This document shows positions 11,785 through 26,954 of a DNA stretch of 32,177 nt, one piece after another. The DNA comes from Clostridia bacterium (GTDB lineage Bacteria; Bacillota; Clostridia; Oscillospirales; Acutalibacteraceae): NCBI GenBank assembly GCA_017454485.1, contig JAFTCX010000042.1:1-32177 (forward strand), written 5' to 3'. Position numbers and translations under genes: made by a program. Within the stretch, counting starts at the first letter, position 1. The number at the start of each line of letters is the position of its first letter. Under the pieces are notes generated by a model, which made no database searches, had not been told where the DNA came from, and saw only the letters and a program-made list of their open reading frames with translations.

Positions 11785-14700
11785 TCAGATGTTTCTGAAC
11801 AGCCATCTCAAGAAGCGAACAATGAAGCTATCGGATGCGAAGATGCCGCTGCCACTATTGCCGGAGCCGGTGCCGCCCGTGCTGCTGCCGCTCGAACGTG
11901 TCAGGAGCTGAAGCACGCCTCTGAAGAAGCTGGAGATGTAATTCAACGCACCAAGCAGCAGGTTTACACCGCCTCTGCCGGTATCATTGATATACTCCTT
12001 ACATCTGTCGCAGATGTTGTTGTTGTCCTCGTCGATGTGACCGAGCTTCTTATAGACCTCTTCAACCTTCACGTCACCGCACATGGAGCAGACTCTCGTC
12101 GCGTTACCGTCAGTCGTGCAATCAGCATCAACGATGATCAGATCACCATAGTTATGACCGTTGCGTTCGCAGTACGTTGCGGGAGAAATGACCTCAACAT
12201 CAATGGTGAACTCAACAATATTATACTTCACTGTATCTGTCGGCGTATAAACAGCAGTCACAGCAAAGGTGCCAAGCTCTTTCAGTTCCGTATTCGGAAC
12301 CTTCCATTCGATCCGCGGGAACTCTTCGGGAATCACAATGTCTTTCAACATGCTGTTCTGCAGGACAGTAAACTTCGTCGGAGCACTGAAGCTCTCATTG
12401 GTCGGGTCAATATAACGAGTAAATGTTACTTTGTCGCCCAAATCAACGACGCCTTCCACTTTGGCTTCACCTGCATATGCGGTTGTGCCACTCAAGAGAG
12501 ATGCAACGAAAGCGTTTTTGTCGGAAGCAGAAGCATATTCCGCAGCAGCAAAGCTCGGCTGTTTTTCAGCAGCAATGCGGAGATTGTTCACCATCTGTTG
12601 AATTTCAAAGACCTGCTGCAGCTTATCGCTGTAATCAGTGCCGAAGAAGGTCTGTGCCATTGCGTTCAGGTACATGCAGTTCGATGCAATGACAGTCGAA
12701 TTGTCATCAAGCTCAATGGTCAGCGCAATCACATCGGCTTTATTTGCAAGCAGCCACGCAAGCTTTTCGCTATCCGAAGTGAGTGCTTTGTATGCATCAA
12801 GCTTTGCCTGAAGACGCGGCAGGATACCTTCCTTGCTGCCGGTGCCGTTGATGTTATCAATGGCCGTGCGGATTTCGTCAAGATAAATCTTCAAAAGCGC
12901 GTTGTCAGCATACTGAGCAAACTTCTGAATGATCTTATCCTTGTTGTTGTTCCACTTTGTAATGATGTTTGCATAGTCGGGAAGCAGTGCATCAAAAGCG
13001 GAAACTTCCTTCTTGGATGCAGCAGTCATACCGTCATCAAGTTGATAGATGAATGCAGCCGTATCTTCCGCAAGCTTCATCGAAACACTGTAGTTTGCCT
13101 GAAGCTTATGCGTACCAACCATAAAGTTGCCGATCTTCACGGAACCGTCAACGAGCGGTTCAATCGTATCATCAAAGCCGGCAGCTGTCGGAACGTAGGT
13201 GAAGTTGGTGCCATCAGGCAGATCCAGCGCCACAGCACTCACCGGATTGATTTCAACTTCATCCGTATCGGGCAGGTACTCGAAATCGAAGGAATTCACG
13301 TTGAACTCAGACGGAGCAACAACCTTCACATGGCTCGCATAAAGGTCAGAGGCAGATGCATCGTTGACAAATGCACTTGCGTCAACAACTCTGCCGCTCG
13401 TCATGCTGACATTCGTGGCAGCCGCAAACGGAGCAATCTGGCCTGCATATACGCCGGTGGTATATTCAACAACCGGAGAAGCAGTCACAAAGCTGCCCTT
13501 GGTATTGTCGATCGCATACAGACCGGTCAAAACGCAGTTCTTTGCAGTAACGCGGCCATCGCTGACCTTCACAGCGCTGCAGGACGCATATGCGCCGTTT
13601 TCTGTTCTTGTCACAGCGCCCTTGATCACGCAGTTTTCAAGCGTGAGCTTGGAGCCGTCGTTCACAAGAACGGTCGCGGTTTCATTTGAGGTGTTCAGGT
13701 AATCCGCCGGAGCAAAGATCGCGTTCTTAATGGTAACGGTCTTGCCGCCTTCCACAACGATGATTGCGAGGTCGTTCATGTTGGAAACAACCTTACCGCC
13801 AAAGTCGATGGTGCAGTTTCTGTCAACCGTCAGGCGAAGCGAAGCGTTGTTATCCTTCGGCCAGACGTACGTGTCGCCATTCTTTGTGAAATCGTCAAGC
13901 GACATGTAGCTGAGCTGCGCTTTCAAGGTCACATCGTGCGCCGGCATTTTGCCGAACTCATAGGCCTTGGAGGAATCCTCACCGTACCAATACTTGAAGG
14001 ACAAGCCGGTAGCAACGGAGAGTTTGTCAGTCGCCTTGGTCTGCTCGCCATAAGTATAGGTCACAGAGTCAACAACCGTATCGCCGAGCATGAAGGTCAT
14101 GACATAGGACTGAATGCTCCATTTTGCATAAACAGTGATGTCGCCTTCGGTGGAGTCGGTCGTACCGGTGATCTTAGTGCCTTCAGCGAAGTCGGGGCTG
14201 GTGTACCAGCCGTCGAACGCATAGCCTTCCTTGGTCGGAGCGGCGAAGGTCACGGGCAGCACACGCTGATAGCCGATCGGGTTGGCTTCGTCGTTCACGC
14301 CGCCGTTCAGTTCATAGGTGATGAAGCCGTCGTAGTTTGCTTCCGCTTCGTACTCTGCGGTTCTGCCGAGATCCAGCACACCGCCGGAAATCGCGTTCTC
14401 GTCAAAGTACAGGCTCATCAGGTCAGACGCTTCGGTCTGATAGCTGGCGAGCGTGCCGTAAAGCGCGGCATTCATCGCCTTCATAAGACCGTTCTTGGCG
14501 TTCTGAATGTAAGCAACAGACGCTCTGACCGCATTCACCTTTTCAATCATTTCGGCCTGTCTATCGTTGTATTTACCAAAATTATATGTGTCGGTGATAT
14601 TTTTGCCATCCAGCACGTTCAGCAAGCTGTCGTTCGATGTCGGATCACTGTAGGAAGAGAAGGAAACGCCTTCGGCATAGGTGCTGTTAATCACGGACAG

Positions 14701-17700
14701 CACAGATGCATACAGATCGATGAAGTTGTTCGCAAGGTAGCTCACAGCGTTCACGAGCTGCTCGCGCGGCGTTGCGCCGGTGGCTGCGTTCTGCAAAGCT
14801 TCAAGCTGAGCCTTATAGGTGGGAATGGAACCAACAAGGCCGAAGTTACCGACGCGGAGTTGCGGCTCAAGCATGTTCCAGGTTTTTTCAGGAACTGTAC
14901 TCTGAATATTCGCCATCAGATCAGCCATCTTCGAATCGCCAAGGATGGCAGCGAAAAGGTTCGCATAAGACTTGCGTGTTATGGTTCCATCATAAGCTTC
15001 ATCATCCCAACCGATGAATTTATTGAAGGTTTCATTATCCCAGTAGGAAAGCCAGGTGGTATAATTATTATTAGAGTTCTGCGGAATAATATCGGGATAC
15101 TCATCATAGAACGGATAGTTTGCAACGTATCTCGGACCGAGCGGACAGTCATAGTGACGTGCGTCGCGTTCAATGAAGCCCTGACGCATATCATACAGGA
15201 AGAAGTTCAGCAAATCTGCAACCGAGGCTTCCAGTTCATTCACGCCGAGCATTTCGTCAAGCATTTTCGGGAAGGCCTTGACAAGACCGGCCGCCGACGC
15301 TTCGGAGAGCGAGAAGAAGCTCGATTTGCTGTCCGCAGTCAGCGAAAGCGCAAAATTGACCTTGACCACATAGGCCTTGGACGGGTCAATGCCTTCAAAC
15401 GCCACGGAAACGTCACCGTTTTCGTCCGGTGTGATGGGCTTGGATTCCACGAAGGTATCGGTAAAGTTATTTTCGCTGTCCACAACTCTGGTATAAAGCG
15501 CCAGCTCGTTGGCCGTCCACTTGTACTTACCGTCGGATTCATCCGGGAAGGAGGTGGAAACATTCAACGTGGTGCCGTCAATGACCATCTGCGTGTTGAA
15601 GCTCTGCGGCGCCGCAACCTTCAGGTTGTTGGTATAGGCGTTGGCTGTACCGGTTGCAAAGGACATCGCATCGGCCTTGTTGGTAAACAGGGCAACGCCG
15701 TAGATATCCATGCTGCTGTCAGTCTTTCTGTAGGTACCGGCACCCGGCCAGAAGTACAGCGTCGGCGCGCTGCCAGTGAAGTACTCGCAGTTGCTCAGGG
15801 GCTTGATATAATTCCGAATTTTGCCGGAACCGTCTTGCGTCGGGGCATATTCTTCGCCGCTCAAATAACTATTGTTGGTCTGGGCGCTTGAACTGAACCC
15901 TGCATAGGTATAGGTCAAGTTGCTCGGCAAACCGTTGGTAAGAATTGCAGCAAATTTATAATCTTCACAATTCTCAATGTTGACATTTGGAATTTCAAGG
16001 TAGCTGTTCACTGCATTATCCGCACCATTAAAAGTGAAGACTGCGCAATTTCTTTCGGCGTCATAGGTCACTGTGGATCCGCCGGCCGGTGTTGCCGCAG
16101 CAAGCTGTTCAGCACTGATGTACAGACCGGTTTGCGGCAGATAATAACTCGTTGAACCGCCTTCAATGGTGCCGAGGTAGGACAGATCGTCGTCTGCCAG
16201 CGTGTTTGTAATGTCGATGAACTCAGAACCTTCGCTCTTTGTGAGCTTCTTCATGTCGGCGACGGCGCCGAGAACACCCTCAAAGTTGCCGGAAACAAAC
16301 GTTGCGGTATTTGCGGCTTCACTGTTGTTCAGCGCATACAGACCGAGCAGGTCGGAAGACTTCACGGTCAGGTTGCCGTCGTCCTTCAGCACAACTGCAG
16401 AACCGGCAATCACCTTTTCGCCGTCAACGTCGACGGCAGCGCCGGAAATCTTCAGGTTATCAAGCGTAACATTGCCACCCTCCACGAGGATTGCAGGCAC
16501 GTTGTCCTCAAGAATATCGATCAACGGAGCATTCTGAGAGTTGTCGCTGTAAACAGCGTCCACAGAACCGTTTTTGATTGTGACGTTGCCGCCGATCACA
16601 CGGATAGCCGGTGAACCGTCCACACCATGCAGCGTGTTGCCGCCGAGATCGATGGTGACGTCCTTATCAATCAGCAGCGAGGACGCGGCCACATCTTCGG
16701 AAACAGTCACTGTGTCGCCGGCATTGGCGGCAGCAACCTGAAGCTGGGTAGGATCTTCCACAACGCGGATGCGCATGGTATCGGAAGCTTTACCGTAGCG
16801 ACCGGTCGCAGTCACGTCGGCATAACCGGCGGAAACGGGAATGAGCTTGCCTTCGGAGGTGATTCTCAGAACTTCGGGGTTGGAGGAAAGATAGATGAAA
16901 TCTTCTTCCACACCGTAGTCGTTGTTGTTCGCGTCGCCTTCAGCATCGTACCACGGGGTATCCGGCGTGAGGAGCTTGCGGCCGTAGATGTAATCCACAT
17001 TCAACTGACCTTCGGCGCCAACCGGAAGAATATCAGTGATGCTGCTGACCTTCACCTTATCAAAGAAGCTGATCCAATATTCATCATCATAGCTCGAAGA
17101 GAAAACCGGATTTTCATTTACAGCATCCTTTTGGCAGAAGTCGGACAAAGTGATACGGACGGAACGCATCTGCTTCAAACCGCCGGTTCTTGCCCATTCG
17201 GAAAGGTTCAGCGTTTCGGTTGCAGCACCGCCTTTGGTTTCGGGCATAAACAGGGTATGCACATATGTTGTTTCTTCCACTTCGCCTTCCACGTAGCCGC
17301 AGATACCGTAGTTGATTTCACCGAGGAAATAATCGTCGGACGCCGCAATATCAAGCATGACGTCGCTGGTGTCTTCATCAAGGTAAAGCTTAAGACTGTC
17401 AATTTTAGGTGTGTCGCCGTCATAATACGCATTGAACGAGAAGGTGTTGCGCAGGTTGTTGTTGGTTTCCGGCGTTCCGTAATCCGGCAGAACCTCAACG
17501 GAATATGTCACCTGCGTGCCGGGTTCAATGTAATTCTGGGTGCCGTCAATCTTGCCGTCCCATTTAAAGAGGTCGCTGTCAAAGTAACCGGCGTTGACCA
17601 TGCCGACGGAATCGCTGTAATAAAACGATTTGCGGACATAATCACGGTTTGCGGTCGCATAGACCTCACCAGTCTGGGTATCGGTGACAGTGAACTTCAG

Positions 17701-20700
17701 GGACTTCGCGCTGCGCAGCAGGCCAAGCTCGGCGCCGAGCATGTTCGCGTGGAGGGACAACGTACCGCCGAAGACGTTGCGGACATCCTTCAAATAGGTT
17801 GCGCCCATTTCATAAACATCATACGGCGTTTTTACACCGTCGGAGTTCGGCAGGCCGAGCGGATACAGGAAATTGCCGACAATGGAGCCGTAATAGACGT
17901 TTGCACCGGTAGAAACAGACATCTGCGGGTGTACGGGGTTGCCAAGGAAGTCGTCTTCCCAGGTGCCTTCGTCAAGCATCGGCGCCTGTGTCCAGTCGCC
18001 ATAGAACGCAAGATACGGAACGTGCAGGTCGGGCTGACCTTCCGTTTTGCTGGTCAAGGTAACGAAGCCTTCCACATAGATGCCGTTGGCAAAGTTTTCA
18101 TCCATATAGGCCTTTGCTTCTGCACCGAGGGTGACGGTCACAGTCACAGTTGCACTTGCATTTGCCGGAACGGTCACGGTGTTCGCTGCGGGCGTCACAG
18201 TGGACATTGCAGTCAGATCATACGGTTCGCCGGACATGAATTTCACGTCTTCCAGCTCGTCAATTGCATATACACGATGGCCGTAAGAATTCTCGCGGAA
18301 CGGGAGTCCGGTTGCTTTGAACGCGTCGGCCTTTTCAGGGTCAACGCGGCGGGTCTGGTAGGAAACGTCCTGAATGTCAACCTTTTCGGTCTGAACATTC
18401 GCGGAAACGTCAAACACAAGATCCTGTGCGCCGGTGTTGACCACGCTGAAGGTCATCTCATACACGCCGGTTTTTGCCTTGTCGTCGCCAAGGTCAAGCT
18501 TCGGCGTCGGGGTGCCGTTCACGGACACATATGCGTTGGAAGCAAGCGCGGCGTCAATGTTGACGAGACCTGCGCCCTGCTTACGCGGAGAGTACGGAAT
18601 GCCGCTGTCGCCAAAGAGGACGGGCGTTGCGGTGCTCATCATGAGCGCCTTGGCAACGGTCTGCTTTGCAGAACCGGCAAGCGCAGCCGAAGCAGGCGCA
18701 TAGTTGGTGACCTGTTCTTTATCAGCGTCACTCAGAGCGTTATAAAGGATTCGGCCGTAAGTAGCCGCAGATGCAAAGTCATCGATTGATGCAGGCTGCG
18801 TAACATTGTTGGTATACGCATTCACGTTTTCAACCGTTGTTGCCTGCTGCAGCAATGCTGCATAAGCTTCTTCCGCAGCCGTCAGAGTTGCAAGATTCGT
18901 GACCTTTGCCTTGTAGGCCGTTGCGTTTGTGTCAGCCGTGTTGTTCAGATTGTCATAGTAGCGTCTTGCTTCGTCGATCTTGGCTTTGCAGGCAAGCGTC
19001 AGCTCCACATCGCCGATGGCGTTAATCAAAGAAACCGTCAATTGCGCTTCCGCGTTGAAGAGATATTTCAGATATGTGGCGGAAATCGTGCTGTAAACGT
19101 TGTTCAGCCAGCGATTATACCAGAATCTCGAAGCATCAACCAAGGCCTTATAATCATCAGTATACGCAACGGTTTTGAGAGCCTTTAAGATATACGAATT
19201 CAGCAGGGTGCGCTGTGCATTTCTAAGCTTATTCTTATAAGTAGCTGTAATCTTCGCTTGATCCGTAGCAGAAAGAGATTCAAGCGCGATTCTCGCTTCA
19301 TGCATGCGACCCATGTATCCAAGATAGCCGCCCGTAGCGTCAGCAACGGAGCCGATCGCGTTGAGCTTCGTCTGCGCGTTCGCAACCGTGAATTGATTGT
19401 AATAGCTCTTCACAATGCCGTTCGCATAGTTCACTCTGCCGTCACGGGCGGATTTTGAAGATTCGGGCAGCGCGTCAATAGCAGCTTCCAATGCATGAAT
19501 TTTTTCTTCACATTCCACAGAGCCGTCAAGGGTGCCGATCTCACTCGCCAAACGATTGACATAGGCCGCTTCAAAATTCAGGAAAGAAGTATCATTGACA
19601 GGATTCTGATTGTTCAAATCTTGCACAACCAGTGCGGACACACCGGCAAGATACGGAGACGACATGGAGGTACCGCTCATCAGACCGTATTTGTTGCCCT
19701 TCAGCGTGGAATACACACTGCCGCCGTAACCGGTAATTTCCGGCTTCAGCTTGAGGTCGGGTGTAACGCCCCAAGAGGAGAAATCGGACATTTCGCCTGC
19801 AGTCGGGTTGTTGATGAAGGTGGTGGCATCGGTAATTACAAGCTGATGGGAAGCCTCGGGGTTGGATTCCTGTGCAACAAGGAATTCACCGTCTGCCTTG
19901 GAGATGAAGATCGCAGGAATGGAAACGTCGTTGTTTTCCATCATGTTGACCAGCGAACCGTCGGAATGGTCACAGACGATCAGACCAATGGCGCCAGCGT
20001 CCTCTGCGCGGGCAACCGTTTCGGTAAAGGTTTCGCCTCTGAGAATCACAGCGTATTTGCCTTTGATTCCGCTGGACTTTGCATAGTTTTCAAAGTCGCC
20101 CGGCGTACCGGTCAAAAGCTTTCCTTCGCCGTCCTTCAAAAGCGCATACTCTTTTACGGTGCCGGAATGCTTTTCAATGCTGCGTTCTTCTTCCGTTGCA
20201 TTGTTCGTATAGGCAATTCCTCTGCCGTCAACAATCACGGATTTTGCATAGTAGTTTTTACTTGAAATTGACGCCACGGCAAGGTTGTCGTCATAGGAAG
20301 CGGGAGAGCCGACGATGCCGTTGTCCGGGTTGGACGCAAGCGATTCATCGGTACCGTAAAGGTTGCCCTTTGCGGCGTTGTATTCGTTACCGGCGGAAGC
20401 GCAGACCACCACGCCCGCGTCGGCAGCCGCCTGGAAAGCGGCGTCGTATTGAGGACGGTCACCGCCATAGGTGAAGCCCGCCCAGGAGCCAAGAGAAAGG
20501 TTGATGACGTCTGCGCCAAGCAGCACAGCGTCCTCCATAGCGGCAAGGATGTCGGCATAGTTACCGGCACGCTCGTAGCCGAAGACCTTCATCTCAAGGA
20601 GCTGTGCATCAGGCGCAACACCTTCAAACACAACCTTGCCTTCGGCGTCGGTTTCGTAACCGGCAGTGATACCGGAAACGTGAGTACCATGATCGCCCTG

Positions 20701-21687
20701 CTCGTCATCATTGAAATAGCTGAACGCCCAGCTCCAATAGCTCGGATCGTCTGGATAGCGGAAATATTCGTGTCCGACAAAGATATCATCCTCGGAATAC
20801 GCGAACGCATAAGGAACCTTTGAGTTGCGATAAAGGCTGCGCGCAAAGGCACCGAGAGAAGCAGAGTTCTTGGAACGCTGATAAGCATTTGTCAGTTCCC
20901 ATTTTGCAGCGATGTCCTCTTTCGCAAGCTTCGGATTGGAAACAGGATTTTGGAACGCCTTATGGAAGGTCGTCTTCACAGAATCCGTAGCAGAATCATA
21001 AGTATAGCTCGAATCCAAACCGGTGTCGATGACCGCAACAACCGTACCCGTTCCCTTGTTGGACGTGGTGTTGTCGCTGCCGGTAAAGTACTTTGCAGCC
21101 TTCTGCTCTTCCGTTGTCACGGAGGAAGCGTCTGTGGGAACCGGCGTATAGATCGGCGCGGTGTAGACAGATTCAACGCCGCGGATGGCCGCGATCTCGT
21201 TGATCTGCGAGGGCTTCGCATTGATGGCAAACGCATTGGTCAAAAGGGAATAAGAATACATGACGTCGAGATCCTGATTCTTCATCACCTTTTTTGCAAT
21301 GCGTCCCTGCACGCTTTTCTGTTCACTTTCCAGCTTCTTCTGTGCTTTCTGCACCTTTTCGCTGTCTGCCTCAGAGCTGTCGTTTCCGGCAAGAGCACCT
21401 TCGCCGGGAAGCTTAACAATGAGGGTCACGTCCTCTTCCGAATCGCCAACAGTTTCAGACAGTGTTGTTTCTCCGGAAGCAATCGCGTCGATCTGATCTT
21501 CTGTCAGATCGTAGCCGTATTTGTCGGAGATGTCCTTCAGCTCTTCGCGCGTGTAGGTCACTTCTTCTGCGGCTTGCTCGGCTGCGGCTTCGGCCACATC
21601 GGCAGCAAACACAGAAAAGGCCACAGTCACGGAAGACAGCAGCATCAGAACAGCCAACAAAACAGCCAGAACTTTTTTGCTTTTCAT
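11785..21687 (-). CDS. Giant secreted S8 (subtilisin-like, lactocepin-type) peptidase
   Basis: 3300 residues, exported and cell-envelope-associated. A signal peptide (1-29, ending SVFAA) precedes an I9-like propeptide (about 85-180) and the S8 domain with D221 (VIDTGLD), H333 (GDHGTHVSG), oxyanion N434 (SAGNE), a PA domain (about 510-620) and nucleophile S674 (SGTSMSSP). A ~315-residue helical insert (about 692-1008) splits the catalytic fold, which resumes at ALMMSTATP...GIPYSPRKQGAGLVNIDAA. Fn3-like strands follow (1055-1190), then a beta-helix region (about 1645-1850), an InlB/Flg_new-type repeat (about 2450-2520, YELNGG...GWYTS...VYAKW), a second beta-helix (about 2600-2780), a Cys/His-rich ribbon (about 3172-3229, CSMC, CDRC) and a Gly/Ser linker with a hydrophobic-basic tail. 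There is no LPXTG motif. GAAAGGA precedes ATG 21687. It probably digests host or dietary protein. Confidence 0.93.
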   Translation of the reverse strand: MKSKKVLAVLLAVLMLLSSVTVAFSVFAADVAEAAAEQAAEEVTYTREELKDISDKYGYDLTEDQIDAIASGETTLSETVGDSEEDVTLIVKLPGEGALAGNDSSEADSEKVQKAQKKLESEQKSVQGRIAKKVMKNQDLDVMYSYSLLTNAFAINAKPSQINEIAAIRGVESVYTAPIYTPVPTDASSVTTEEQKAAKYFTGSDNTTSNKGTGTVVAVIDTGLDSSYTYDSATDSVKTTFHKAFQNPVSNPKLAKEDIAAKWELTNAYQRSKNSASLGAFARSLYRNSKVPYAFAYSEDDIFVGHEYFRYPDDPSYWSWAFSYFNDDEQGDHGTHVSGITAGYETDAEGKVVFEGVAPDAQLLEMKVFGYERAGNYADILAAMEDAVLLGADVINLSLGSWAGFTYGGDRPQYDAAFQAAADAGVVVCASAGNEYNAAKGNLYGTDESLASNPDNGIVGSPASYDDNLAVASISSKNYYAKSVIVDGRGIAYTNNATEEERSIEKHSGTVKEYALLKDGEGKLLTGTPGDFENYAKSSGIKGKYAVILRGETFTETVARAEDAGAIGLIVCDHSDGSLVNMMENNDVSIPAIFISKADGEFLVAQESNPEASHQLVITDATTFINNPTAGEMSDFSSWGVTPDLKLKPEITGYGGSVYSTLKGNKYGLMSGTSMSSPYLAGVSALVVQDLNNQNPVNDTSFLNFEAAYVNRLASEIGTLDGSVECEEKIHALEAAIDALPESSKSARDGRVNYANGIVKSYYNQFTVANAQTKLNAIGSVADATGGYLGYMGRMHEARIALESLSATDQAKITATYKNKLRNAQRTLLNSYILKALKTVAYTDDYKALVDASRFWYNRWLNNVYSTISATYLKYLFNAEAQLTVSLINAIGDVELTLACKAKIDEARRYYDNLNNTADTNATAYKAKVTNLATLTAAEEAYAALLQQATTVENVNAYTNNVTQPASIDDFASAATYGRILYNALSDADKEQVTNYAPASAALAGSAKQTVAKALMMSTATPVLFGDSGIPYSPRKQGAGLVNIDAALASNAYVSVNGTPTPKLDLGDDKAKTGVYEMTFSVVNTGAQDLVFDVSANVQTEKVDIQDVSYQTRRVDPEKADAFKATGLPFRENSYGHRVYAIDELEDVKFMSGEPYDLTAMSTVTPAANTVTVPANASATVTVTVTLGAEAKAYMDENFANGIYVEGFVTLTSKTEGQPDLHVPYLAFYGDWTQAPMLDEGTWEDDFLGNPVHPQMSVSTGANVYYGSIVGNFLYPLGLPNSDGVKTPYDVYEMGATYLKDVRNVFGGTLSLHANMLGAELGLLRSAKSLKFTVTDTQTGEVYATANRDYVRKSFYYSDSVGMVNAGYFDSDLFKWDGKIDGTQNYIEPGTQVTYSVEVLPDYGTPETNNNLRNTFSFNAYYDGDTPKIDSLKLYLDEDTSDVMLDIAASDDYFLGEINYGICGYVEGEVEETTYVHTLFMPETKGGAATETLNLSEWARTGGLKQMRSVRITLSDFCQKDAVNENPVFSSSYDDEYWISFFDKVKVSSITDILPVGAEGQLNVDYIYGRKLLTPDTPWYDAEGDANNNDYGVEEDFIYLSSNPEVLRITSEGKLIPVSAGYADVTATGRYGKASDTMRIRVVEDPTQLQVAAANAGDTVTVSEDVAASSLLIDKDVTIDLGGNTLHGVDGSPAIRVIGGNVTIKNGSVDAVYSDNSQNAPLIDILEDNVPAILVEGGNVTLDNLKISGAAVDVDGEKVIAGSAVVLKDDGNLTVKSSDLLGLYALNNSEAANTATFVSGNFEGVLGAVADMKKLTKSEGSEFIDITNTLADDDLSYLGTIEGGSTSYYLPQTGLYISAEQLAAATPAGGSTVTYDAERNCAVFTFNGADNAVNSYLEIPNVNIENCEDYKFAAILTNGLPSNLTYTYAGFSSSAQTNNSYLSGEEYAPTQDGSGKIRNYIKPLSNCEYFTGSAPTLYFWPGAGTYRKTDSSMDIYGVALFTNKADAMSFATGTANAYTNNLKVAAPQSFNTQMVIDGTTLNVSTSFPDESDGKYKWTANELALYTRVVDSENNFTDTFVESKPITPDENGDVSVAFEGIDPSKAYVVKVNFALSLTADSKSSFFSLSEASAAGLVKAFPKMLDEMLGVNELEASVADLLNFFLYDMRQGFIERDARHYDCPLGPRYVANYPFYDEYPDIIPQNSNNNYTTWLSYWDNETFNKFIGWDDEAYDGTITRKSYANLFAAILGDSKMADLMANIQSTVPEKTWNMLEPQLRVGNFGLVGSIPTYKAQLEALQNAATGATPREQLVNAVSYLANNFIDLYASVLSVINSTYAEGVSFSSYSDPTSNDSLLNVLDGKNITDTYNFGKYNDRQAEMIEKVNAVRASVAYIQNAKNGLMKAMNAALYGTLASYQTEASDLMSLYFDENAISGGVLDLGRTAEYEAEANYDGFITYELNGGVNDEANPIGYQRVLPVTFAAPTKEGYAFDGWYTSPDFAEGTKITGTTDSTEGDITVYAKWSIQSYVMTFMLGDTVVDSVTYTYGEQTKATDKLSVATGLSFKYWYGEDSSKAYEFGKMPAHDVTLKAQLSYMSLDDFTKNGDTYVWPKDNNASLRLTVDRNCTIDFGGKVVSNMNDLAIIVVEGGKTVTIKNAIFAPADYLNTSNETATVLVNDGSKLTLENCVIKGAVTRTENGAYASCSAVKVSDGRVTAKNCVLTGLYAIDNTKGSFVTASPVVEYTTGVYAGQIAPFAAATNVSMTSGRVVDASAFVNDASASDLYASHVKVVAPSEFNVNSFDFEYLPDTDEVEINPVSAVALDLPDGTNFTYVPTAAGFDDTIEPLVDGSVKIGNFMVGTHKLQANYSVSMKLAEDTAAFIYQLDDGMTAASKKEVSAFDALLPDYANIITKWNNNKDKIIQKFAQYADNALLKIYLDEIRTAIDNINGTGSKEGILPRLQAKLDAYKALTSDSEKLAWLLANKADVIALTIELDDNSTVIASNCMYLNAMAQTFFGTDYSDKLQQVFEIQQMVNNLRIAAEKQPSFAAAEYASASDKNAFVASLLSGTTAYAGEAKVEGVVDLGDKVTFTRYIDPTNESFSAPTKFTVLQNSMLKDIVIPEEFPRIEWKVPNTELKELGTFAVTAVYTPTDTVKYNIVEFTIDVEVISPATYCERNGHNYGDLIIVDADCTTDGNATRVCSMCGDVKVEEVYKKLGHIDEDNNNICDRCKEYINDTGRGGVNLLLGALNYISSFFRGVLQLLTRSSGSSTGGTGSGNSGSGIFASDSFIVRFLRWLFRNI

Positions 21688-22032: not shown

Positions 22033-22060
22033 AAAAAAAAGGAACTGCCTGAGCAGCTCC
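22033..22060 (-). terminator. Terminator of the ligase-ACP-condensation-MFS operon
   Basis: An 8-bp stem GGAGCTGC/GCAGTTCC (one G-T pair) with a TCAG loop at 22041-22060 is followed on the minus strand by eight Ts (22040-22033). It begins about 22 bases after the MFS stop codon. Confidence 0.92.
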
Positions 22061-22082
22061 CTTATGATCGTTACAGTAATCC

Positions 22083-23321
22083 TTATGCGGCCTTTTTCTT
22101 CATCGGACCGACAGCCAGCGCAAGGAACAGCAAAACGGTTCCAACCACGCAGATTGCAGCAGCCGTAATATAGCCCTTGGAAAAGCTTCCCGTTGCAGTC
22201 ACAACACGGCCGATCACCTGCGTTGCAAGTGCGGCGCCGCCCCAAAACGCACCGCCCGAAAAGATCGGATTGATGGAGTTGAGGTCCTTGTTGCCGAAGA
22301 GGGTCGCCGTGATGACCGGGCAGATGTTAGAGGTCATTGCGCCCGTTACGCAAAGCACAGAGCAGATGACGGCAAGCCAAATAACCGCCATGTTCGGATA
22401 AACAAGCGCGTAAACCAACGCGCCGGCCACCAGCGGCACAGCGGTCAGAAGAATCAGACCCTTGATGCCGAGCTTGTTGGTGATTGCGCCGCCGAGGAAG
22501 ACGAACAGGATGCCGACGCCCTGCATGATGCCCTGCATTGCGGAAGCAGTGGACTGTGCCATGCCGTAGGTCGTAAGCAGCGACGGCATATAGGTGCTGA
22601 TGCCGAGATAAGAGATCGAGAGCATCAAAATGCCGACGAAAACAAGCCAGAAGGACGGCGTCTTGAGCGCCTGACCCTTGGTCAGACCCGGAACCTCAGC
22701 AGCCTGCGCCTGAGCAGCACCGGCAGCAGCGCCGGACTGCGCCTTTTCCTGCTTCGGGATAATAAAGAAGGCGACGAGGTTGCAAACAAGGACGATCACC
22801 ATGATGACAAGATATACCTGTCTCCATGCCATCACGCCAAGCAGTGCACCCGGCAGGAAGGAGAACGCGGTTGCGCCGACAGAGGCGGACGCGAGCACAA
22901 GGGCAATAATTGTGGAGACCTTTGCGCCGTAGTTGCCGAAATACGGGGTGATCGTTGCAACGCCCATCGCGTGCGTTCCGAAGGCAAGATTGATGCCGCC
23001 GAACAAACCGGCAACGATGATCATCCAGATTGCGGAAGCAAAGCTGCAGATCAGGCAATATACAACGGCAAGCACGCCGCAGATCACAAAGATCACACGC
23101 GGTTCAATCTTTTTCAGTAGTGTGCCGAAAAGGAACGTGGAGCAAATGAAGGTCATAATGCAGCCGAAGGTTGCGGAAAGCGCGATGGTTGCCATGTTTT
23201 CAGCGCCCCACTCCTCCATAAACGATGGAAGAAAAATGGAAAACGTGGAATTTATACCCATGTTCGCAAAAAGCGCGATCATAGCGCCGATGACGGCTCT
23301 GGTTGATTTTTTGGAATCCAT
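22083..23321 (-). CDS. MFS transporter (OFA-like), putative product exporter
   Basis: 412 residues with 12 predicted membrane helices in two halves joined by a central cytoplasmic loop (around 195-225, rich in Ala/Gln). The overall pattern (MALFANMGINSTFSIFLPSF start, TYGMAQSTASAMQGIMQGVGI in the second half, short basic tail KKKAA) fits the major facilitator superfamily, close to the oxalate/formate-antiporter-like group. It is the last gene of the operon, 18 bases after the condensation gene, and ends at a strong terminator, so export of the operon's product is the likely role; uptake of a precursor is the alternative. The start is ATG 23321, because AAAGGAG lies 8 bases upstream; the frame extends only to a TTG inside that ribosome binding site. 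Confidence 0.88.
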   Translation of the reverse strand: MDSKKSTRAVIGAMIALFANMGINSTFSIFLPSFMEEWGAENMATIALSATFGCIMTFICSTFLFGTLLKKIEPRVIFVICGVLAVVYCLICSFASAIWMIIVAGLFGGINLAFGTHAMGVATITPYFGNYGAKVSTIIALVLASASVGATAFSFLPGALLGVMAWRQVYLVIMVIVLVCNLVAFFIIPKQEKAQSGAAAGAAQAQAAEVPGLTKGQALKTPSFWLVFVGILMLSISYLGISTYMPSLLTTYGMAQSTASAMQGIMQGVGILFVFLGGAITNKLGIKGLILLTAVPLVAGALVYALVYPNMAVIWLAVICSVLCVTGAMTSNICPVITATLFGNKDLNSINPIFSGGAFWGGAALATQVIGRVVTATGSFSKGYITAAAICVVGTVLLFLALAVGPMKKKAA

Positions 23322-23339
23322 GGTTGTTTCTCCTTTCAA

Positions 23340-24698
23340 TCAAATGGTTTCTTCGGTGAGTTCACGAATGGTCTTGTCCGGCGTTTTGATGCCGGCGAGC
23401 AGGAATCTGAGCATAAACTCATGGAAATGCTTCAGGTTCTCTTCGTCAAGATAATCATAAGAGAACAGATAGTCCGCCCAAAGATCGCCGGAATCGTCAT
23501 GCGGCATGAGGTTCATATACAACGGATAGAACGCAAACCCGGTGTCCACATGGTTGGCGCTGAATTTCAGTCCGACAGCGTCCGCCGTGAAGTACGGCTG
23601 ATAAGTGAACACAACGGTCTTATAAGTGCAGTCTTCCGGAAGACCGAATTTTTCGTTGAGCGGCTTTACATAAAACGGCATTTCCACTCCGATGTGGCGA
23701 TACATATCCTTTTGCGAAATGTCAAGCTGTTTGAGCGCTTCGTTAAAGGAAAGATCTCTTGAGATAATGGAGCGCCAAGTCACCTGATGGGCGGTCGTCA
23801 TGCCGCATTCCTTTTCAACCAGCGTTGAACGGCGTGCACCTGTGGTGTCAAAGCAAACATCGTCACTGCCGCTCATGTTGGAAAGCCAGGTGCGAAGTGC
23901 AAGGGCGAAATAGACCTGCGGCGACATATTGTTCTTCATCGCTGCGTCGTTGATGATCTGCACAGTCGCAGCAGGAATACGAATGGGCATACTCTTTCCG
24001 GCAAGCTGATCAAACGTCTGCGCTTTACCGTAATTCTTGCCTTCAATATATTCCACACTGCCGCGCGGATTCATGGAGGAGAAATGCGGCTCTGTTGCGA
24101 ATTGGGCGTTCCACCAGTCAATATCCTTGAACCAACGCTTGGATTCGTAGTACTCCCATGATTTTTCAATGTGCTTTTCGGGACCGATGCCGGGTGCGGG
24201 CAGCTCTGTGCCGTTGACCAGCGCATTGTACACCTTGTCAAAGTAGATGATAACGGTGATCAGACCGACGGAATCCATGATCAAATGGTAGCCGTTGAAA
24301 TACAGGGTATGCTTGTTGCCGGGCGTGCGGATGAGCTTTGCTTCATAAAGCTGCACATCGTTGTAATCGTTCGGCAGCGGCGAGCCCGCTTTTCCAAGGA
24401 TGTATTCATCAACTTCTTCGGGTGTTTTGTCTGACATATCAACAAGCTCAATGCCGGTCGGCTCATCGTCGCAGTAATACTGCTCAAAGGAGCCGTCCTC
24501 AAGCTCATGCAGACGGATTTTGCAGAACGGCAGACGTGTTACAGTCAGCCGCAACGCTTCCAGTACTTTTTCTTCGTCAATGTCACTTTCCAGATCCACA
24601 CGCACAGGCATGTTCAAAAGCGCACGCGGTGCGCCCTGCACATGAATCAGCAGTGCGACCTGATCGCGGGAAAGGCGAAAATAATTCGGAGTATTCAT
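23340..24698 (-). CDS. Stand-alone condensation (C-domain) acyltransferase
   Basis: 452 residues, the size of one NRPS condensation domain of the chloramphenicol-acetyltransferase-like fold. The catalytic HHxxxDG motif appears as YHLIMDS, with the catalytic H138 and structural D142 kept and the flanking H and G replaced by Tyr and Ser. A latch-like region follows (DDVCFDTTGARRS, near 297-309). It should join an acyl group held on a carrier protein to an amine or alcohol acceptor. AGGAGA stands before ATG 24698, 13 bases after the carrier protein gene. With no NRPS module nearby, the carrier at 24712-24936 is the evident donor. PapA/WS-DGAT-like acyltransferase activity on a free acceptor is an alternative. 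The acceptor is unknown. Confidence 0.83.
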   Translation of the reverse strand: MNTPNYFRLSRDQVALLIHVQGAPRALLNMPVRVDLESDIDEEKVLEALRLTVTRLPFCKIRLHELEDGSFEQYYCDDEPTGIELVDMSDKTPEEVDEYILGKAGSPLPNDYNDVQLYEAKLIRTPGNKHTLYFNGYHLIMDSVGLITVIIYFDKVYNALVNGTELPAPGIGPEKHIEKSWEYYESKRWFKDIDWWNAQFATEPHFSSMNPRGSVEYIEGKNYGKAQTFDQLAGKSMPIRIPAATVQIINDAAMKNNMSPQVYFALALRTWLSNMSGSDDVCFDTTGARRSTLVEKECGMTTAHQVTWRSIISRDLSFNEALKQLDISQKDMYRHIGVEMPFYVKPLNEKFGLPEDCTYKTVVFTYQPYFTADAVGLKFSANHVDTGFAFYPLYMNLMPHDDSGDLWADYLFSYDYLDEENLKHFHEFMLRFLLAGIKTPDKTIRELTEETI

Positions 24699-24711
24699 CG
24701 TTTTTCTCCTG

Positions 24712-24936
24712 TCAGATTCTTTCGTTGATGTAATCGATCAGGTCCTGAATGGTGAAAATCGTATTCAGGTCTTCTGTTTCGATCGTGATATCATAGGCAT
24801 CTTCCAGCTCGCCGACCATCGTCATGATGTCCAGAGAGTTCATGTGGATGTCTGCCATGAATTTCGTGTTCGGGGTGATGCTGTCCTTCGGGACATTGAC
24901 ATACTCCAGAATCACTTCACGGATTTGCTCAAACAT
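24712..24936 (-). CDS. Stand-alone acyl carrier protein
   Basis: 74-residue acidic four-helix carrier. The phosphopantetheine site is S34 in HMNSLDIM, within the pattern ACP proteins show (xxSLDxxxxVxELEDxxxI), although the usual Asp before Ser is Asn33. It holds an acyl group as a thioester for the neighbouring condensation protein. The start is ATG 24936, preceded by AAGGAGG at 8 bases; the longer open frame begins inside the upstream ligase. The ligase stop codon overlaps its start by 8 bases, which indicates translational coupling and supports a ligase-carrier pair. No phosphopantetheinyl transferase is encoded in the window, so one must be supplied from elsewhere. Confidence 0.92.
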   Translation of the reverse strand: MFEQIREVILEYVNVPKDSITPNTKFMADIHMNSLDIMTMVGELEDAYDITIETEDLNTIFTIQDLIDYINERI

Positions 24937-26677
24937 TGGCTTTTTCCTCCTTCTTTTTGTTGATTGCGGCAATTTTAAACCGCTGAATTTTATGTGTCGT
25001 GTTCTTTGCGAACTCCGATTGCGTAATTTGATAGTCCATCAGGCGTTTAAAGCTGGGCACCGAAGCGTTAAAGCTGTTGATGTCTTCCTGCATGAACTTT
25101 TTGATCTGTTCGGGATCGGTGAGCTGATGGTCGCGGCAGAAATCGCCGTCGGGATAAATCAACGCACAGATGCCGCCGAGCGCATCATCGGCATAAACCA
25201 CGCATTCCTTGATATAGGGAATGTGCTTTTGCAGCGCTTCCTCCACCTCTTCCGGCGAAACATTTTTACCGTTCGGTAAAATGATCAGGTTTTTGAGTCT
25301 GCCGCAAATAAACAGAAACTTGTCTTTGTCAATGTGTCCGAGGTCGCCGGTGCGGAACCAGCCGTCTTTGGTAAAGACCTGCTTGGTATCCTCCGGCGCT
25401 TTATAATAGCCCTTCATGACATTGTCGCCGTAAAGCTGGATTTCGCCGTTGCCGTCTTCATTCGGGTCCGCAATGCGTGCCTGCATCGTCGGCAGCAGAT
25501 GTCCGACACTGAAACGACGCACCTTTTTGCTGGGGTTGACCGCAGCGACGGGGCTGCATTCGGTGATGCCGTAGCCGTTATAAACGGAGATGCCGATATT
25601 GTCAAGGAAGTCGGCAGTGTCCTGCGAAAGTGCGGCGCCGCCGCAGATGATCATGGAAAGATTGCCGCCTAACGGTTCGAGGATCTGCTTGAAAAGCTGA
25701 CGGCGGCGGTCGATGCCGACCTTGCGCAGCGCTTTGGAAAGCGTTACGGCGCGTTTGAACGTCTTTTCCTTGCCGGTATCTGCAATCTGCTTTTTCAGTT
25801 TGCGCACGATGAGATCGAGCATCATAGGCACCATGCAGCTCATTTCCGGCGAGAAACGGGCAAGATTTTTCAGCAGATGCTTCAAGTCATCGTTCAGGCA
25901 GACGGTTGTGCCGCAGTACATACAGCTCATGATGTGCGCGTGCAGCTCGTAGGAATGGTTAATCGGCAGCACGGAAATGCTCGAATCCGAAAAATGCAGC
26001 AGCCTTGCGCAGCCACGCAGCGTACCCATGATGTTGCGGTTGGACAGCATCACGCCCTTATTTGCGCCGGTGGTACCGGACGTATAAATAATTACGCTTG
26101 TTTCATCCGGTGCAATCGTCGCCGGGAGCGCAGCGCTGCCTTTTTCGGCCAGCAGTACCCTGCCCTCTTCAATCAGCGCGTTCATCGTATCAACGGTTTC
26201 GCACCCAGCAACTTCAGGCTTGTCATCCGAACGCATCACGAAAAGCGTTTTTGTGAACTGACAAAGCGGCAAAACTTTTTGCAGTTTACGCAAGCCCTTC
26301 GCTGAGCAGAACACCGCTTCGATATCGGCGAAGTCAAGCTGCTTGACCAGTGTTTCCTGCGCATTTTCCTTATCCAGCGGCACACAGACGCCGACGCCGC
26401 TCATCACGGCAAGATAGGCGGTGATCCATTCATAGGAGGTCTCGCCGAAAACGGCAATGTGCCTGCCGGAAAAGCCGCGTGCAACAAGTGCCGCTCGCAG
26501 GCAATCGACACGGTCTTTCATTTCGGCGAACGTGACAGACGATTCTTCCGATCGGCTTTCGATCTGCCGATACGCTGCCTTTTGTGGGTAATGTGTCGCC
26601 GCGTGAGCAAGAATCTGATACAGTACGGTAAAAGATTCCACATCCTCCGGCGGAATATACAGTTTTTCAGTATTCAT
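24929..26677 (-). CDS. AMP-forming acyl-ACP/CoA ligase, operon-leading
   Basis: 582-residue ANL-superfamily adenylating enzyme. Visible motifs are IIYTSGTTGANKGVMLS (about 194-210), GYGITECSPV, GWFRTGDLGHIDKD with CGRLKNLIILPNGKN, and the terminal lysine motif NTTHKIQR. The overall shape is that of fatty-acyl ligases and not of amino-acid A domains: GVGVCVPLD, MVPMMLDLI and a helical linker resemble long-chain acyl-CoA synthetases. It probably loads a fatty acid on the carrier protein whose gene overlaps its 3' end. It resembles the lone ligase at 58-1836. AAAAGGGA lies 7 bases before ATG 26677. The acyl substrate is not readable from sequence; a CoA product cannot be excluded. Confidence 0.88.
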   Translation of the reverse strand: MNTEKLYIPPEDVESFTVLYQILAHAATHYPQKAAYRQIESRSEESSVTFAEMKDRVDCLRAALVARGFSGRHIAVFGETSYEWITAYLAVMSGVGVCVPLDKENAQETLVKQLDFADIEAVFCSAKGLRKLQKVLPLCQFTKTLFVMRSDDKPEVAGCETVDTMNALIEEGRVLLAEKGSAALPATIAPDETSVIIYTSGTTGANKGVMLSNRNIMGTLRGCARLLHFSDSSISVLPINHSYELHAHIMSCMYCGTTVCLNDDLKHLLKNLARFSPEMSCMVPMMLDLIVRKLKKQIADTGKEKTFKRAVTLSKALRKVGIDRRRQLFKQILEPLGGNLSMIICGGAALSQDTADFLDNIGISVYNGYGITECSPVAAVNPSKKVRRFSVGHLLPTMQARIADPNEDGNGEIQLYGDNVMKGYYKAPEDTKQVFTKDGWFRTGDLGHIDKDKFLFICGRLKNLIILPNGKNVSPEEVEEALQKHIPYIKECVVYADDALGGICALIYPDGDFCRDHQLTDPEQIKKFMQEDINSFNASVPSFKRLMDYQITQSEFAKNTTHKIQRFKIAAINKKKEEKANV

Positions 26678-26907
26678 AGTCGTTCCCTTTTCTGCATTGT
26701 AAACAATACCAAATCATTATTAGCGGACAAAGCTTAAAAAATCTTTAAAAAAATAAAAACAAATAATAAATTATTAAGAATTCTTTTTGAAACAATCATA
26801 CACGATAACTGTTTTCAATGTGTTTACTACCTATGAATCTTTTGTGACTATTTTGCGACGTTTTTGTCAAAGCACGGGATCGTTTACATTTTTAACAGTT
26901 TTAAAAT
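26678..26907 (-). other. AT-rich leader/promoter region of the ligase operon
   Basis: About 230 bases with no supported gene. I see no SigA pair at proper spacing: a perfect TTGACA (minus strand, around 26866-26871) has no matching -10, and a TATGAT (around 26798) has no matching -35. An imperfect inverted repeat (TTGAAAC at 26787-26793 with GTTTTCAA at 26811-26818) lies in the middle. Promoter use here may need an activator or alternative sigma factor. Confidence 0.35.
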
Positions 26908-26909
26908 AA

Positions 26910-26939
26910 ATAAAAAAGTACAGCCGCAAAAGCTGTACT
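26910..26939 (-). terminator. Terminator of the lipoprotein-trxB unit
   Basis: A perfect 8-bp stem AGTACAGC/GCTGTACT (26917-26924 and 26932-26939) with a 7-base loop, followed on the minus strand by TTTTTTATTTATTTT. It lies 15 bases after the trxB-like stop codon. Confidence 0.92.
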
Positions 26940-26954
26940 CTGAATTTGATTAAA

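Follow-up and report, generated by a model that had tools for sequence, protein, structure and literature searches.

The stretch analysed here, referred to as the window, comprises 32,177 nucleotides of contig JAFTCX010000042.1 from an uncultured Clostridia bacterium of gut type (assembly GCA_017454485.1), and its element of interest is an operon of four adjacent minus-strand genes (22083-26677) encoding an acyl ligase, an acyl carrier protein (ACP), a stand-alone condensation (C) protein and a major facilitator superfamily (MFS) transporter. As read from the DNA, the ligase and ACP genes overlap by 8 bases (24929-24936), and gaps of 13 and 18 bases separate ACP from C and C from MFS, respectively. 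The initial annotation, made from the letters without database searches, was borne out to the base in this layout, and its single terminator at the operon end was likewise recovered (Table 1). Pfam matches agreed with the gene calls, i.e. AMP-binding (8.4e-66) with AMP-binding_C_3 in the ligase, PP-binding (2.5e-12) in the ACP, Condensation (5e-29) in the C protein, and MFS_1 (2e-25) in the transporter. No thioesterase (TE) or reductase gene was found in the operon by Pfam searches of its proteins, and, as the initial annotation had stated, no amino-acid adenylation (A) domain was seen there either.

Table 1. Genes and candidate signals of the operon region, in coordinates of the window (aa, amino acids).
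Feature	Coordinates	Strand	Details
ANL-superfamily acyl ligase (adenylate-forming), fatty-acyl type by nearest families	24929..26677	-	582 aa (581 codons + stop)
Acyl carrier protein, fatty acid synthase (FAS) type by sequence	24712..24936	-	74 aa; phosphopantetheine Ser34 at 24837-24835
Stand-alone condensation (C) protein	23340..24698	-	452 aa; motif YHLIMDS, His138 at 24287-24285, Asp142 at 24275-24273
Major facilitator superfamily transporter	22083..23321	-	412 aa; ATG start; MFS_1 match
Intrinsic terminator 3' of the MFS gene	22038..22063	-	fold -17.2 kcal/mol, z -3.66
Terminator-like hairpin 3' of trxB, between trxB and the operon, marking the operon's upstream edge	26915..26941	-
Promoter-like site TTCAAA-17-TATTAT, 5' of the ligase gene	26763..26791	-

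The nearest curated families of the ligase were fatty-acid and other acyl-CoA ligases, the best NCBIfam match being PRK06187 (long-chain-fatty-acid--CoA ligase) with 255 bits against a cut-off of 476; the best 25 of 100 matches all remained below their cut-offs. The ACP matched PRK00982.1-4 (acyl carrier protein) with 71.8 bits, above the cut-off of 66, and the best 60 of its 107 solved matches all bear the name acyl carrier protein or are closely related to one, which places the carrier, on sequence, in the FAS type and not the peptidyl carrier protein (PCP) type. One AcpS-type phosphopantetheinyl transferase was matched in the window's genome (87% complete).

The catalytic residues are intact in all three enzymes. 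The ligase segments YTSGTTGANKG, NGYGITEC, FRTGD, GRLKNLIILPNGK and THKIQRFK, which we take to be the ANL motifs, were invariant in six aligned rows including the window, as was ACP Ser34 (within MNSLD), and His138 and Asp142 of the C protein were invariant in the six rows and in 30 aligned stand-alone C proteins; the full ligase motifs, carrier serine and condensation residues named in the initial annotation are thus all present. A single pairwise comparison of the window with its closest relative, RUG13829, gave ratios of nonsynonymous to synonymous substitution rates (dN/dS) of 0.036 for the ligase, 0.055 for the ACP, 0.044 for the C protein and 0.039 for the MFS gene, with 0.040 for the neighbouring trxB. 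All four genes are under strong purifying selection, and other genomes contain the same gene set. Chance open reading frames or decaying genes are ruled out by these values of 0.04-0.06 from the one pair.

The best solved relative of the C protein by sequence was Protein Data Bank (PDB) entry 12KH, both in sequence search (E 1e-25, against 1e-7 for the next chain) and in profile search (E 4e-35, against 2e-8 for the next). This entry is OaaC according to the data statement of PMC13142362. OaaC belongs to the OaaA/OaaACP/OaaC system of Coprococcus eutactus, which consists of an A protein, an ACP and a stand-alone C protein, uses a free amine acceptor, has no TE, and was first described by Chang et al. 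2021 according to PMC13142362. In that account OaaC joins oleoyl-ACP to aminovaleric acid to form an amide, and its homodimer hides the ACP face and opens with holo- or acyl-ACP (autoinhibition).

For the C-domain tree, the C domains of 121 open frames (>350 amino acids matched) were reduced to 76 rows, with overlapping fetches of one sequence removed: eight window-type proteins, 45 other stand-alone proteins of related genomes, OaaC, 21 domains from longer frames resembling nonribosomal peptide synthetases (NRPSs), and Escherichia coli EntF. Frames of at least 600 amino acids were labelled NRPS-embedded, with L113 (606 amino acids) as the exception and EntF kept apart; the sampling held neither typed starter domains nor VibH. 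A branch with 100/100 support divided all 54 stand-alone C proteins (window type 8, other 45, OaaC 1) from all 22 C domains of longer NRPS-like proteins, and, as the tree was midpoint-rooted, this division is an unrooted split and not a rooted clade. The C protein of the window therefore groups with stand-alone C proteins, apart from NRPS-embedded domains, as a fatty acid amide (FAA) system would have it. The window-type proteins of the eight genomes formed one branch (100/100). Identities of the window C protein ranged from 18.3 to 24.5% against the other stand-alone rows, and from 14.2 to 21.8% against the embedded rows.

The same partition was seen in the inter-lobe loop, counted like the motif from alignment columns. 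All eight window-type rows had a loop of 34 residues; it measured 39 in OaaC and ranged over 31-40 across the remaining 45 stand-alone rows. In the 21 embedded domains it was 17-21 residues long, and in EntF 19, with no overlap between stand-alone and embedded rows. In OaaC, an insert at this position covers the face used for A-domain packing in modular NRPSs (PMC13142362). The window C protein carries a loop of insert length, matched to the OaaC insert by position only because residue 224 is Arg in our numbering and His in that paper.

The window-type motif reads [Y/F]HxxMDS, in which the second-position His, the Asp and the final Ser, the last as in OaaC, were present in 8/8 rows, and the first position was Tyr in seven and Phe in one. 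Neither Tyr nor Phe occupied this position in any of the remaining 45 stand-alone rows, which carried D, H, S, C, I, N, T or A there. For FAA C domains, the noncanonical form (D/H)HxxxD(S/A) with near-invariant second His and Asp is described (PMC13142362). The marks of a canonical NRPS module, that is HHxxxDG, a linked A-PCP unit, and a TE or reductase, were not found: the activities are carried by separate proteins and the site is YHxxxDS. A piece of a canonical NRPS is ruled out by the tree split together with the loop and motif comparison. A free-standing adenylate-forming ligase, an ACP and a C protein are instead encoded together, as in FAA systems, and the link to fatty acid amide clusters of gut Clostridia that the initial annotation had suggested holds, given the same three-protein logic, with OaaC as best solved relative and on the same side of the tree.

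The window-type C protein was found in eight distinct genomes in total (RUG13829, G767 and L036 are one genome and were counted once). The initial annotation had made its proposal dependent on a conserved gene neighbourhood, and the trio of ligase, ACP and C protein was conserved in all eight; in G746 just the ligase end lies at a contig edge, so that the ligase is cut. In the family sample, 6/398 genomes carried the window-type C protein at 8.7e-263 or better, the next match being 1.8e-46, and in the genus sample 2/34. The window's own genome gave the sole window-type match both in the order sample (14/394 genomes with any match at E 0.001), which left out five other carriers found in the family sample, and in the class sample (22/371 genomes with a match at 1e-20); no window-type match was seen outside the family in the genomes sampled. 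These absences are approximate, because most searches scored no more than four candidates in each genome and genomes were sampled evenly. The window branch has so far been seen in one bacterial family, which probably includes rumen genomes: two of the carriers, RUG13829 and RUG13427, are probably rumen bacteria, judged from the use of RUG for rumen-uncultured genome in PMC7820578.

Stand-alone triads as such are common in the family. P0003 matched 56/300 genomes at E 0.001, some of them only through C domains of large NRPSs. Of 28 long loci fetched that were not of window type, 21 had both a ligase and an ACP at most 3 kb from the C gene; L111, which belongs to a larger NRPS frame, and L138, a copy of L036, were not counted. 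A PF00668 search of the window's own genome gave four C proteins, all stand-alone, whose open frames measure 463-553 amino acids: C11 is that of the window, C66 and C5 adjoin a ligase and an ACP, and C53 adjoins an ACP only.

The MFS gene adjoined the trio in 6/8 genomes, on its 3' side in the window and RUG13829, and on its 5' side in RUG13427, G060, G174 and G718; in G162 and G746 it was unlinked, on another contig among other genes. Within the 425 genomes searched for both (398 of the family plus 34 of the genus minus 7 shared, both family searches being taken as the same 398 genomes), the MFS was present in 7/7 genomes with a window-type C protein, and it was present in RUG13427 as well. 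The association of the MFS with the trio is well supported. A strict one-to-one bond was rejected: the family sample fitted it (6 and 6 of 398, in the same genomes), and the genus sample broke it (2 with the trio and 6 with the MFS, of 34). The MFS tree mixed the labels "with trio" and "alone" (two label changes), and shared with the C tree the pair of the window and RUG13829 and the group of G718 with (G162, G746). No window-type MFS lay within 3 kb of the other triads (0/28 long loci, with a profile that detects only this MFS subfamily).

Eight weak NCBIfam matches were obtained for the MFS, all below cut-off, the best being L-lactate and conjugated bile salt MFS transporters, followed by D-galactonate and aromatic-acid transporters; the rest included sugar, nitrate and oxalate/formate carriers. 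Family resemblance thus leans weakly, mostly toward organic-anion carriers. No solved relative was found by sequence at E 0.001, and the neighbourhoods of MFS genes standing alone (a GH43 protein, lipase, subtilase and others) gave no substrate hint.

We read the operon, with a probability of about 0.65, as a transporter-linked three-enzyme system of the fatty-acid-amide type. The ligase would use ATP to adenylate its carboxylic acid substrate, in the likeliest case a fatty acid, and load it onto holo-ACP, as its family and the OaaA/OaaACP precedent suggest. The C protein would then bind the acyl-ACP, as its place in the tree and intact residues indicate, and His138 would enable attack on the thioester by a freely diffusing small molecule, most likely an amine, to give an amide, which the MFS would move out of the cell unless, less likely, it moves a substrate in. 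Product release would be the condensation itself, so that a TE would be unneeded. The acceptor is probably an amine by analogy to OaaC, the only characterised relative on which this step can draw; it is the weakest chemical step of the scheme, because the residue next to the catalytic His differs and the branch is deep. The initial annotation had proposed that the operon makes and exports an N-acyl or O-acyl small molecule, of which the FAA-type conjugation is retained, whereas no evidence pointed to an O-acyl product and the transport direction is considered below.

Several results weigh against this reading. The stem of the window branch is long (1.89 changes per column), and the branch lies outside the 25-row group (100/100) that contains OaaC, being joined with weak support (89/63) to a group of 21 rows. 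The window C protein is 21.5% identical to OaaC (437 columns), no higher than to the best embedded domain (21.8%), so that kinship rests on the tree, profile and loop. The first motif residue, Tyr or Phe, is outside the D/H form of FAA C domains (PMC13142362), and acceptor and chemistry could therefore differ. The MFS occurs without the trio in 4/418 trio-less genomes, all four in the window's genus (4/34), which makes it associated with the trio and not exclusive to it. In one of these four, G754 (L142:8298-18998), the chromosomal site matching that of the window has genes for trxB, the MFS, a lipase and a subtilase in that order, without ligase, ACP and C genes; the trio was accordingly lost or gained beside an MFS able to stand alone. 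The weak join in the C tree does find agreement in a ligase tree of 32 rows, where the seven window-type ligases formed one group (100 by the Shimodaira-Hasegawa-like approximate likelihood ratio test, SH-aLRT) that joined five long triad ligases (L103, L114, L046, L052 and L054) with support 94; a separate group of 16 rows held mostly shorter ligases.

The term exporter in the initial annotation is not supported, given the genus genomes that have the MFS alone. The trio might make an amide while the MFS imports a substrate, either carboxylate or amine, a version that we regard as less likely than export: the best four of the weak family matches are carriers of L-lactate, conjugated bile salts, D-galactonate and aromatic acids, and occurrence without the trio is what an independently useful transporter would show, but no trio genome examined lacked the MFS, which adjoins the trio in two different gene orders, and the operon holds no catabolic enzymes. 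Returning to the FAA-type system, its fullest form, namely a distinct transporter-coupled subfamily with an aromatic-His-xxx-Met-Asp-Ser site, an acceptor unlike that of the Coprococcus type and an MFS dedicated to secretion of the conjugate, is put forward tentatively, at less than even odds.

Some relatives of C domains make esters. The C protein could accordingly be an O-acyltransferase that moves the acyl group from ACP to a hydroxyl group, be it on a sugar, a polyol or a hydroxy acid, with the MFS handling the ester. The depth and length of the window branch, and a first motif residue that departs from the (D/H) of PMC13142362 and is absent from the 45 other stand-alone rows, would fit such a change of chemistry; but the protein sits among stand-alone C proteins, of which OaaC, the one characterised representative in the tree, forms amides (PMC13142362), and the operon has no gene for a special alcohol, so that we consider this improbable. 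The likeness of the ligase to long-chain acyl-CoA ligases and the FAS type of the ACP would also suit fatty-acid recycling, in which the two act as a soluble acyl-ACP synthetase that scavenges acids from outside the cell, leaving the C protein inactive or in an accessory role. This is very improbable, as the C protein is constrained about as strongly as the ligase (dN/dS 0.044 vs 0.036), its catalytic His and Asp are invariant, and ACP and C protein are conserved as a unit with the ligase. Least probable of all is pairing of the C protein with an unseen module of a split NRPS to form a lipopeptide. Starter C domains too accept acyl donors (PMC13142362), and completeness of the genome is only 87%, but the operon showed neither another carrier nor an amino-acid A domain, the PF00668 search of the genome gave only the four C proteins, and the loop that covers the A-domain packing face in OaaC (PMC13142362) is present.

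Stand-alone ligase/ACP/C systems for fatty acid amides are published as a general kind, of which the window is a divergent branch. In common with OaaA/OaaACP/OaaC, compared here through the C protein, it has separate ligase, ACP and C proteins, no TE, no acceptor carrier, an xHxxxDS site, a long inter-lobe loop and a place on the same side of the tree. It differs in the 21.5% identity and position outside the OaaC subclade, in the first motif residue (Tyr/Phe vs Asp in OaaC) and in the MFS gene, the main text of PMC13142362 containing neither "transporter" nor "MFS". The other triads of the same family and order (L051, L052, L054, L103 and others) have the same three proteins, but their C proteins are 18-25% identical to that of the window, many have another gene order, and two of those scanned adjoin an alpha/beta hydrolase. 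Starter condensation domains of NRPSs, like VibH-like amide synthases, resemble the C protein in fold (by Pfam family), in the HxxxD residues and in the acyl or aryl donor (cf. PMC13142362); in starter domains, unlike here, the acceptor is normally carrier-bound and the domains are embedded in large proteins, and the embedded domains sampled here have the shorter inter-lobe loop.

The window's branch is set apart by the first motif residue, the linked transporter and the position outside the OaaC subclade. The branch was not found described in a search of open-licence literature, which did not extend to the clusters reported by Chang et al. 2021; the 127 FAA C domains of PMC13142362 may include sequences of the window type. 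Of the papers that this search listed, only PMC13142362 treats these enzymes, PMC12479983 being concerned with other N-acyl amino acids. Such systems of gut Clostridia make lipids acting on host receptors (PMC13142362), and a linked transporter could answer how these lipids leave the cell. With its altered active-site residue, and alongside the other three stand-alone C proteins of its genome, the window C protein makes acceptor specificity in this enzyme group directly testable.

As to signals around the operon, terminator-like sites in this stretch were little above chance (10 seen vs 7.3 expected, sd 2.4), and promoter-like sites in the region, the one upstream of the ligase included, were at about chance level (7 seen vs 5.3 expected in shuffles, sd 2.2). 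A scan against Rfam at gathering thresholds returned one tRNA and nothing else. Directly downstream of the operon, at 11785-21687, lies a gene for a probably secreted subtilase of 3300 amino acids with PA, Fn3-like and Listeria-Bacteroides repeat domains. At the contig edge (58-1836), outside the operon, is another AMP-binding ligase, of 592 amino acids, which had matches in 21/21 genus genomes searched, the best per other genome being 40-91% identical.

Other enzymes were observed beside stand-alone C genes or triads elsewhere. GH3-family enzymes adjoined C genes at L123:6210-7925, L047:1567-3240, L116:6830-8530, L117:9707-11404 and, in the window's own genome, L044:1395-3095, assigned by Pfam GH3, GH3_M and GH3_C for L123, L047 and L117, and by a local profile only for L116 and L044. 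No AMP-binding ligase was found near the C gene in L123, L047 (a short contig) or L116, and one lies about 6 kb from the C-ACP pair of C53 at L044; it is possible that the GH3 enzyme replaces or follows the ligase in a variant system. Alpha/beta hydrolases directly adjoined two other ligase/ACP/C triads (L051:5626-6579 and L055:11196-12182), where they could be releasing or editing enzymes, and none lies beside the window's operon. Near the C66 triad of the own genome, L043:727-2013 gave a sub-threshold alcohol acetyltransferase match (18.0 bits vs a cut-off of 22). Metallophosphoesterases identified by Pfam adjoined the trio in G060 and G162, and look-alikes adjoined the MFS gene in G162 and G746; with none next to the window's operon, these neighbours are taken as incidental.

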